A stretch of DNA of 36,646 bases from Tannerella sp. GTDB lineage: Bacteria > Bacteroidota > Bacteroidia > Bacteroidales > Tannerellaceae. Made by a program: the position numbers and the translations under genes. The notes under the pieces were generated by a model. It made no database searches. It worked only from the letters and a program-made list of their open reading frames with translations, and was not told where the DNA came from. The stretch spans positions 1 through 36,646 of the forward strand of contig JAIRYD010000021.1 of NCBI GenBank assembly GCA_031267935.1, in the 5' to 3' direction. Shown here piece after piece: positions 30,761 through 34,100 of this stretch; position 1 is the stretch's first letter, and every line of letters starts with the position of its first letter.

Positions 30761-30793
30761 TTTGCAAAAATATGAAATTATGTGCTATCTTTG
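30761..30793 (+). promoter_or_regulatory. Promoter of the susC leader
   Basis: TTTG (30761-30764), then 21 bases, then TATCTTTG (30786-30793), which is a close match to the Bacteroidota consensus. Transcription should start near 30800, leaving a leader of almost 390 nt before the susC start codon. No second promoter fits between the terminator at 31105-31152 and susC. Confidence 0.7.
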
Positions 30794-30834
30794 CAGGCCG
30801 TAATTATAAATGCGAGAATAAACTTTATCTAAAC

Positions 30835-31026
30835 ATGATTGAATTGAGACCTTCACATGATCTGCACGAAAATCCCTGCAAAGAGAAATATCTTTTTGTG
30901 TTGGGATTAATTAACGTGGATGCTTTGGATATGTCCAATTATTTGTTAGAGAGAGAGAGAGAGAGAGAGAGAGAGAGAGAGAGAGAGAGAGAGAGAGACT
31001 CTATCAGACGCTTCGCGCGCGTATAA
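30835..31026 (+). CDS. Putative leader peptide with a phase-variable Glu-Arg tail
   Basis: 63 codons from the ATG at 30835 (MIELRPSHDLHENPCKEKY...), about 35 nt after the expected transcription start. It reads into an AG repeat as alternating Glu-Arg, then stops at TAA after DSIRRFARV. I do not recognise the N-terminal 38 residues. The frame exits the repeat in the only phase of three that stops early. One fewer AG unit would continue to the TGA at 31188-31190, overlapping the susC ATG as ATGA. One more unit would continue to the TAA at 31166-31168. No strong ribosome binding site is seen, which is normal in this phylum. It may be a regulatory leader frame rather than a functional protein. 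Coding status is uncertain. Confidence 0.4.
   Translation: MIELRPSHDLHENPCKEKYLFVLGLINVDALDMSNYLLERERERERERERERERDSIRRFARV
30948..30998 (+). repeat. AG dinucleotide microsatellite, about 25 units
   Basis: 51 uninterrupted bases of alternating A and G. Perfect dinucleotide tracts of this length are rare in bacteria and tend to change length by slipped-strand mispairing. Each one-unit change shifts the reading frame of the leader ORF that contains it. Confidence 0.97.
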
Positions 31027-31064
31027 TAATATATGTAAGTCAATTAAAAAAATATTTTCAGGTC

Positions 31065-31085
31065 TTTTCGACACGCGGTCGAAAT
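31065..31085 (+). other. Leader hairpin before the terminator
   Basis: TTTCGAC (31066-31072) pairs with GTCGAAA (31078-31084) over the loop ACGCG. It lies 20 bases before the susC leader terminator and could pause RNA polymerase or compete with other folds. No antiterminator pairing was identified by eye. Confidence 0.5.
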
Positions 31086-31104
31086 TCCGGAAAGAAAATG
31101 CAAG

Positions 31105-31152
31105 CCTTCGGAAGGACGGACTTTATGTGCCGCCCGTCCGGAGGTTTTTTTT
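31105..31152 (+). terminator. Intrinsic terminator or attenuator in the susC leader
   Basis: GGACGG (31114-31119) pairs with CCGTCC (31134-31139). The stem extends, across a four-base bulge, with CCTTC (31105-31109) against GGAGG (31140-31144) including one G-T pair. Eight T follow at 31145-31152. It lies 34 bases before the susC start, so susC transcription from the leader promoter must read through it. Confidence 0.65.
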
Positions 31153-31186
31153 GTATTCATTTTATTAAATACTTAACTGTCAATCT

Positions 31187-34100
31187 ATGAAAAGAGATTT
31201 TATTTTATCATGTGGACGGGATACATGGCGAAAGGCGCTGTGCCTGGTGTGTATCCTGAGTTGTTCGCTTGCATTGCATGCACAGCAGAAGCGTGTGAGC
31301 GGAAAGGTCGTTGACGCAACCGGCGAAACGGTGATCGGCGCCAACATTCTGGAAAAGGGGACTACCAACGGAATCATCACGGACGTGAACGGGACCTTCT
31401 CCCTGGCCGTTCAGGACAATGCCGTGCTGCAGATTTCCTACATCGGGTACGTCACGCAGGAGATCGCGGTGGGCAACCGGACGACCCTGCAGATCACGCT
31501 CGAGGAAGACTTGCAGGCGCTGGACGAAATCATCGTCGTCGGCTACGGTACGATGAAGAAGAGCGACCTGACGGGCGCCGTCGGCCGTGTGACGATGGAA
31601 GGTACAAGTACGATCCCCAACACGAATCTTGCGCAGGCGCTCTCCGGAGCATCGGCCGGTGTCAGCATCACGCAGAATGCCAATCAGGAAGGTGAAGCGT
31701 CGATCTCGATTCGCGGCAAGACGTCGCTTTCGGCCAACGACAGCCCGCTCATCGTGCTGGACGGCATCATCTACAATGGCTCGATTACCAACATCAGCAT
31801 GAACGACATCGAGTATATCGACATCCTGAAAGATGCCAGCGCGGCGGCCGTCTACGGTTCGCGTTCGGCCAACGGCGTCGTGCTGATCACCACCAAGAAG
31901 GGCAAACAGGGCAAACCGCGTATCTCGTTCAACGCCTACTACGGCGTGCAGGCGCCTTCGAACATCGAGATGAAGGTGATGGACGCAGATCAGTATGCGC
32001 TGCGCCTGACGGACTACTACTACCAGCAGAGTCTGTACACGTGGTACCGGACGAACCCGACGAGCGACGCCGGAAAGCCGGCTTATCCCAATGTTTCCGA
32101 CCGCGCGGTGGTGGCACAGTCGCTTCGCACGCAGGAAGAAAGGGACATGTATCTCAAGGGCGGACAAAACATCGACTGGGTGGATGTGGCGCTGGCCGAC
32201 AATCCCATCATACAGAGCTACGACGCCAGTTTTTCGGGACAGACCGACCGTGTGAACTACTATGCTTCGGTGTCGTATACCGGCGAGGAACGCCTTCGCG
32301 TCAACGACGTGTTCGACCGCTACACGTTCAATACCAAAATCGACGGCAAGCTGACCGACTGGCTTTCGGCAGGGCTGAACGTCAACTATTCGTACCGCGA
32401 CTATTCGGGCGTCGCCGCCAATCTGGACGATGCGCGTAAAATCAGTCCGCTGGCCAATGTGACCAACCCGAACGTGCCCGAATCGGTATATCTGACGGGC
32501 GAGAGCTACATGCCGCACCCGATGCGCGGACTGCTGGTGAGCGACGTCGACCTGCGCAACGAACTCTTCTTCGTGGGGAACGTCAAGGTGGAAGTGCCCT
32601 TTGTGAAGGGACTGACGTACGACTTCAACTATTCCAACACGTATTACAACCGCAAGCGAAACACGTTTTATCCCATCACCACTTCCGACGGCGTAGGCAC
32701 CAACGGCAAGGCGGAGAAAAAACCGGAAGAAACGCGCAGCTGGATCTACAACAACATCGTTTCGTATCAGAACAAATTCGGTGCACACAACATCCAGGCG
32801 ACGTTTCTCTACAGCCGCGAGCAGTATACGGGCGAATCGTATACCTTCCGTTCCGAGTTCTTCGACAATCCCACGCTCGAGTACAACAAGATGGACATGG
32901 GTACGAAGCTGAGCACGTCCGACAACAAGGCATGGCAGGAAACGGGCGTATCGTACATGGGACGCGTCAACTATCAGTTCCATAACCGCTACATGGCAGG
33001 CGCCACCGTTCGCCGCGACGGTTTCTCGGGCTTCGGCGCCAACTCGAAGTTCGTCACGCTGCCTTCGGTATCGTTCGGATGGGTAACCTCCGAAGAGTCT
33101 TTCATGCAGCAGTTGCCGTGGCTCTATCTCAAGCTCCGTCTTTCGTACGGACAGAACGGGAACCAGGGTATCGGCCGTTACAGCAGTCTGGCGCAGATGG
33201 CCACGCAGTCGCACGTCTACGGTTCCACCTCCGTCGTCGGCGTATATCCCAACACGATGGGCAATTCGTCGCTGGCCTGGGAAAAGACGAACTCGTACAA
33301 TGCGGGTATCGACTTCGGCCTCTTCGACCGTCGCATCAGCGGCTCCATCGAACTTTATACGGCACAGACCGACGACGTGCTCGTCAAGCGGCGCATCCCC
33401 TGGTCGTCCGGATACGAAGAGATATGGACCAACATCGGCGGTATAAGCAACAAGGGCGTCGAAATCTCCGTGAACTCGCGCAACGTCGACCTGCAGGATC
33501 TGAAGTGGGACCTGGGCGTTACCTTCACGCTGAACCGCGACAAGATCACCAAGCTCTACGGCGGCGGAAACGATATCGATGAAGGCAACTCGTGGTTCGT
33601 GGGCGAACCGATCCGCTCGATCTACGACTACAAGATGACCGGCGGCCTCTGGACGGAGCAGGATCTGTACTCGGGCAACATCCTCAACGGGTGGTATCCC
33701 GGACAGTACAAGTACTGGGACAAGGACGGCAACGGAAGCATCACTCCCGACGACCGCACCATCGTAGGCAACAAGGCGCCCAACTATGCGTTCAGCATCA
33801 GCAATACGCTGACCTACAAAAACTGGTCGCTCTATTTCTTCATCAACTCCATACAGGGCGGCAACGGTTACTACATGTGGAACAACTACGACTACGTCAA
33901 CGTTTCGTCGCGCTCGGACGACGTGTACCGCATCAACCAGCAGGCCACGCGCCAGTACTGGACGCCGACCAACGGCGTGAACAACGCGACGGGCGTCTAC
34001 AACTCGCCCACCGTCACGAGCGGTATCTACGAAGACCGCAGCTTCGTGCGCCTGCAGGACGTTTCGCTCTCCTACAACTTCGGGCCCAAGGTGCGCAAAG

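Follow-up and report, generated by a model that had tools for sequence, protein, structure and literature searches.

Described Repeat- and Leader-Controlled Switches

Danne et al. (2014, PMC3894217) showed with mutants that the number of GCAGA repeats in a leader peptide gene of Streptococcus gallolyticus sets whether ribosomes run through the terminator located before pil1. The leader considered here precedes a susC gene in a stretch of 36,646 nucleotides from Tannerella sp., which was analysed as a whole and is hereinafter called the window. Both at pil1/pil3 and here, the repeat is located in a short leader ORF and has a unit not divisible by 3; one short frame ends ahead of a hairpin terminator, while the others run into or past it. 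The streptococcal loci combine antitermination by ribosomes with a surface structure encoded downstream, and the sequence suggests the same for the present leader. S. gallolyticus employs the arrangement for pilus genes at two loci of the strain studied, whereas here it is seen in Bacteroidota, with an AG dinucleotide and at dozens of loci, the targets being mostly SusC proteins and, in addition, HU-like proteins and ECF sigma factors. Unlike those of S. gallolyticus, the present leaders also carry a covarying hairpin and an open-frame stop overlapping the gene start.

In Haemophilus and Neisseria, frame-switching repeats reside inside coding genes. AG repeats that switch the frame were also reported in a methyltransferase gene of Mycoplasma mycoides (PMC3498834). 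In all these organisms, as here, the length of a short tandem repeat sets the reading frame; however, their repeat is inside the regulated gene, whereas the present one belongs to a separate leader and leaves the target protein unchanged. Attenuators of the trp type share with the proposed mechanism the control of a downstream terminator by leader translation. They sense charged tRNA via alternative RNA folds, whereas the variable here is repeat number; compared against this type, the leader has an array of Glu/Arg codons and a gene for a transporter downstream.

Phase variation of SusC/SusD in Bacteroides fragilis is driven by an invertase, according to Nakayama-Imaohji et al. (2009) as cited in a 2025 phase-variation review (PMC11868660). 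Taken from that citation, the B. fragilis system is similar to the one proposed here in the stochastic switching of SusC/SusD-family genes in Bacteroidales, but it relies on a site-specific DNA invertase and on inverted repeats, which were not found around the window promoter. The words leader, attenuation, terminator and gallolyticus are absent from the review. A preliminary description of the window held that no SusC system is known to use such a mechanism. This stands insofar as no account of a repeat-driven leader switch for SusC or Bacteroidota was found in the literature searched, which lay mostly outside subscription papers, but the principle itself had been published for S. gallolyticus (PMC3894217).

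Leader Region Upstream of susC

The following features make up the leader region and the two genes behind it.

30761–30793, + strand: Bacteroidota-type promoter, read directly, with TTTG at 30761–30764 (−33), a 21-nt spacer and TATCTTTG at 30786–30793 (−7)
30835–31026, + strand: leader ORF in the present frame, MIELRPSHDLHENPCKEKYLFVLGLINVDALDMSNYLL(ER)nDSIRRFARV, 63 codons
30911–30928, + strand: leader hairpin region, TTAACxx-NNNN-xxGTTGG, with covariation in 52 relatives
30948–30998, + strand: (AG)25.5 array of 51 nt, readable without a stop in any of the three frames (as Glu-Arg repeats) and proposed to be the slippage switch
31024–31050, + strand: stop cluster of the closed frame, TAATAA followed by TAA and TAA in the same frame
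31102–31152, + strand: predicted intrinsic terminator, a bulged GC-rich hairpin followed by T8, −24.3 kcal/mol
31166–31168, + strand: stop of the exit frame for 23 or 26 AG units, past the terminator
31187–31190, + strand: ATGA, in which the stop of the exit frame for 24 or 27 units overlaps the susC start codon (31187–31189)
31187–34267, + strand: susC, encoding a SusC/RagA-family TonB-linked outer membrane protein of 1026 aa (TIGR04056/TIGR04057, Plug, CarbopepD_reg_2)
34289–36010, + strand: susD-like gene directly after susC, 573 aa (PF07980, PF14322)

The promoter consensus of Bacteroidota is TTTG-N19-21-TAnnTTTG, and the window promoter fits it with a spacer of 21 nt. The leader start that can be transcribed from it is the ATG at 30835; the start chosen by the ORF program, 30772, is unusable by this promoter because it lies upstream of the −7 box. 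The window copy of the leader hairpin is partly degenerate, with C30915 opposite T30924. The two frames other than the closed one are stop-free across 31024–31050 and clean to beyond the terminator. Leader stops computed for 23, 24, 25, 26 and 27 AG units fall at 31168, 31190, 31026, 31168 and 31190, respectively. Folding of 31095–31165 gives −27 kcal/mol with a z of −4.4, and its hairpin precedes the T8 tract. A simple terminator scanner missed this terminator; the bulge in its stem is the probable reason. No TAnnTTTG box occurs from the AG array to susC in the window. The region holds the elements of the pil1 type, namely a promoter with a leader ORF, a repeat unit not divisible by 3 and an intrinsic terminator, together with one frame stopping before the terminator (31026) and the others beyond it (31168, 31190).

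The preliminary description had already named the promoter, the small leader ORF, the 51-nt AG repeat and the susC ATG at 31187, and its coordinates proved exact. It had also placed a terminator before susC, the present leader stop at 31026, the alternative stops at 31168 or 31190, the latter in an ATGA overlap with the susC ATG, and no second promoter before the gene; all of this is borne out by the fold, the stops computed for 23–27 units and the box search. An invertible promoter was considered and rejected, since there are no inverted repeats of at least 11 nt in 30600–31200.

Next to susCD and divergent from it, the window carries genes for a glycogen debranching enzyme, a family 4-type glycosyltransferase and GH57 (25872–30407, − strand), hinting at an alpha-glucan setting. 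Elsewhere in the window, tandem repeats of 21-, 14- or 7-nt units occupy intergenic DNA (624–822, 20475–20807, 20874–20964, 25293–25358 and 36314–36353).

It is probable, in our view, that the AG-repeat leader is a phase-variation (contingency) attenuator of susC, i.e., a random on/off switch. Transcription would start at the leader promoter, and a ribosome would enter the leader ORF. As the array is readable in every frame, gain or loss of units by slipped-strand events would decide in which frame the ribosome exits. A ribosome in the closed frame would halt just after the array; the hairpin would form, and transcription would stop short of susC (OFF). A ribosome in an open frame would traverse the hairpin, prevent termination and reach the susC start or a point a few bases from it, so that susC would be both transcribed and, by coupling, translated (ON). 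The 25-unit array of the assembly is the predicted OFF length. The rate of slippage in the cell, the termination, the coupling and the ON/OFF phenotype are what we infer from this arrangement of sequence.

Leader Family in the Genus and Beyond

The cassette composed of promoter, ATG, hairpin core and AG array is common to 83 loci in the genus of the window, a set that is silent on leaders without AG because the pattern used to find loci required a short AG run. All five AG arrays of at least 20 nt in the window genome lie in leaders of this kind, and a sixth leader there has an array of 19 nt. The family core reads AATTAAC-xx-NNNN-xx-GTTGGTTAATTCCG..TATTTRTT-(AG)n, with the ATG usually 41 nt upstream. 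A strict core pattern has matches in about half of 41 genus genomes, some of which carry more than 10 leader loci, and in none of 20 genomes from other genera of the family. A scan of 84,980 species genomes revealed the core on 50 stretches, almost all of them in Tannerella sp. MAGs; the remainder are single cases in Paludibacter sp. 221, Dysgonomonas sp. PH5-45 and a few other Bacteroidales MAGs. The MAG series carrying the leader are presumably termite-gut metagenomes. Two matches (L125 and L126, in genomes G094 and G099) were dropped, the core being absent.

Of 79 loci, 67 have the TAnnTTTG box upstream (11.3 expected), and in 50/66 the ATG that first follows the −7 box belongs to the leader frame. 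Columns 8–15 of the leader hairpin are paired in 49 of 52 relatives (45 Watson–Crick, 24 expected) and columns 9–14 in 44 of the 52; the hairpin is short, and its two innermost pairs covary. An Rfam family search of the leader returned only a chance match, far below the gathering score.

The SusC/RagA model is matched by 27 of 55 proteins encoded downstream of the leaders. The others include nine HU-HIG and six HU-DNA_bdg proteins (five with DUF4469), three ECF-type sigma factors, one FecR and two FHA proteins.

Within single genomes, cassettes of about 180–280 nt are 94–99% identical while the DNA beyond the array is unrelated (L112/L113, L088/L093/L095), and the similarity of L093 to L095 stops at the AG array. 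This suggests dispersal, or recombination at AG arrays. Contig ends are frequent inside or just past the array (e.g., L091, L101, L151), as short-read assembly would be expected to produce at a repeat that is shared or variable. Cassettes of some 180 nt that are nearly identical upstream of different sequences within one genome would also be left by a neutral repeat dispersed as a promoter-leader unit, or the features could be due to chance. We give these explanations practically no credence, since the statistics described below hold in a non-redundant set and in Paludibacter, where the downstream sequences are unrelated.

Array Lengths and Exit Frames

Array lengths, read from draft or metagenome assemblies and hence no substitute for read counts, range from 8 to 84 nt over the 83 genus loci and are spread evenly over the residues modulo 3. 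Near-identical copies differ in array length, with 49/51 nt in L070/L082, 49/53 nt in L112/L113 and 43/37 nt in L072/L081, and some of the differences among such copies shift the frame.

A frame open for at least 150 nt beyond the array is present at 66 of the 73 loci with enough sequence, as against 16.3 in dinucleotide shuffles and 20 on the reverse strand. Because of paralogy the loci are not fully independent; when loci of similar downstream DNA are taken out, the count is 34/40 (shuffles 8.8, reverse strand 10). The median exits are 14, 58 and 189 nt for all loci, 189 nt being the upper limit of the test, and 11.5, 59.5 and 189 nt for the non-redundant set. Four loci (L063, L121, L122, L009) have a long exit frame made of short repeated units that stays open for 440–630 nt. 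The Dysgonomonas copy is without a long exit frame.

Among the 53 loci with a called gene, 27 have an exit frame ending within 30 nt of the gene start (2.9 expected, at most 8 in 300 shuffles); the start was set by rule, the first ATG in the first long ORF being taken, and this is expected to contribute noise, not signal. An ATGA or TAATG overlap occurs at 7 loci vs. 0.39 expected, and five of these precede close susC paralogues. The ATGA overlap of the window recurs at L083, L109, L116 and L124 (susC) and also at L057 and L117. At some loci the open frame stops well short of the gene (L012, −93; L056, −90). In the aligned susC paralogues, early stops are likewise confined to one frame. The preliminary description had taken stop codons in the alternative frames of close relatives as grounds for refutation; the relatives give no such refutation, as they have one, sometimes two, exit frames open past the hairpin and often reaching the downstream start codon. 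Its proposal that ribosomes would read through the hairpin and feed susC translation is well supported by these sequence comparisons.

The array might instead act independently of frame, as DNA or RNA (a polypurine stimulus of initiation, RNA stability, recombination), with the open frames as a by-product. The core is conserved in its nucleotides, its hairpin covaries and codon bias is slight, and the near-identical cassettes before unrelated DNA, whose similarity ends at the array, would fit such a role as well. But it fails to predict open frames on only one strand (66/73 vs. 20 on the reverse strand), frame ends at the gene start or the loss of frames in shrunken arrays, and we consider it very unlikely. 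Of 70 genus loci, 64 have a long open frame and six have none: it is present in 56/57 loci with an array longer than 11 nt and in 8/13 with an array of 11 nt or less (P = 0.0006). It tends, on these counts, to go where the array has shrunk. At present 22 of the 70 loci sit in the long frame, 29 being expected under random frame.

The same 64/70 count, together with C-terminal residues common to some groups, could be explained by a functional small protein with an ER-rich stretch as the long form. The common residues coincide, however, with the terminator hairpin: the conserved-looking ending LREDYIRTDPPFL proved to be a terminator hairpin, AAGGGAGGAT...ATCCTCCCTT. Substitutions show no codon-position bias, and a functional leader protein was rejected as a candidate. 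Close copies have no third-position excess, sequences downstream of the array are mostly unrelated between loci, and we regard a small protein as highly improbable. Since the open frame shows no codon-position bias between close copies, its openness, i.e., the passage of ribosomes, appears to be selected rather than a peptide. The simplest reading of these patterns is that what counts is ribosome passage, and this only as long as the array remains able to switch.

Terminators Between the Array and the Gene

Terminators of −13 kcal/mol or better are present at 17/69 loci vs. 5/207 shuffles. At least one exit frame crosses the array-to-gene terminator in 20 of 20 tested cases (3.8 expected), exactly one frame in 16 of them; the test left out L083 (hairpin inside susC), L060 (hairpin at the array end, crossed by two frames) and L095 (hairpin crossed by none). 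About a dozen loci share one terminator sequence family, AAGGGAGGAT...ATCCTCCCTTTTT. Clear U-tailed terminators are limited to roughly a quarter to a third of the loci. In each of the nine aligned susC paralogues a strong hairpin (−15 to −32 kcal/mol) of divergent sequence lies between the array and the gene, and a U tract follows it in only some of them, so where the tract is missing the switch may depend on translational coupling or on non-intrinsic termination.

It is conceivable, though unlikely, that the system is phase-variable translational coupling without transcription attenuation, in which the frame sets ribosome delivery to, or fusion with, the downstream start, and the hairpin blocks translation or is incidental. 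ATGA or near overlaps are found in most susC paralogues, also where the hairpin lacks a U tract, and at two loci, L059 and L084, one of the exit frames continues without a shift into the SusC ORF, a state which would put an ER-rich extension ahead of the signal peptide. Against it stand the enrichment of U-tailed terminators over shuffles and the finding that an open frame passes through every one tested in the interval from array to gene.

Paludibacter sp. 221

Paludibacter sp. 221, a cultured isolate of another genus, has two leader copies whose downstream DNA differs from one to the other. In both, two exits lie within 12 nt and one frame is open, to 346 or 380 nt, traversing terminators of −22.8 and −24.6 kcal/mol; this combination of exits and terminator was obtained in 0/5000 shuffles of either copy. 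The next genes, which begin 684 and 803 nt past the array, encode proteins with signal-peptide-like starts. In one copy (L141), the next gene is hundreds of bases beyond the open-frame stop, a distance at which coupling alone cannot work.

Implications

Taken by analogy, the system appears to work like S. gallolyticus pil1. New here are its occurrence in Bacteroidota, the dinucleotide repeat, the dozens of loci, the conserved leader hairpin and the ATGA coupling to susC. We would give even chances to a broader, lineage-wide contingency, in which a dispersing promoter-leader-AG cassette stands before genes for surface transporters and regulators (ECF sigma, HU-like), slippage shuffles the set expressed by each cell, and the conserved leader hairpin may promote slippage or pausing. 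The predicted state of each locus can be read from sequence by counting AG units, and so a direct test is possible in metagenome reads and in the Paludibacter sp. 221 isolate. In Bacteroidota, the phase variation of SusC type known so far is DNA inversion. If the present reading is true, a repeat leader switch, invisible to inversion-based surveys, would provide a second general means by which cells come to differ in nutrient uptake and surface display.
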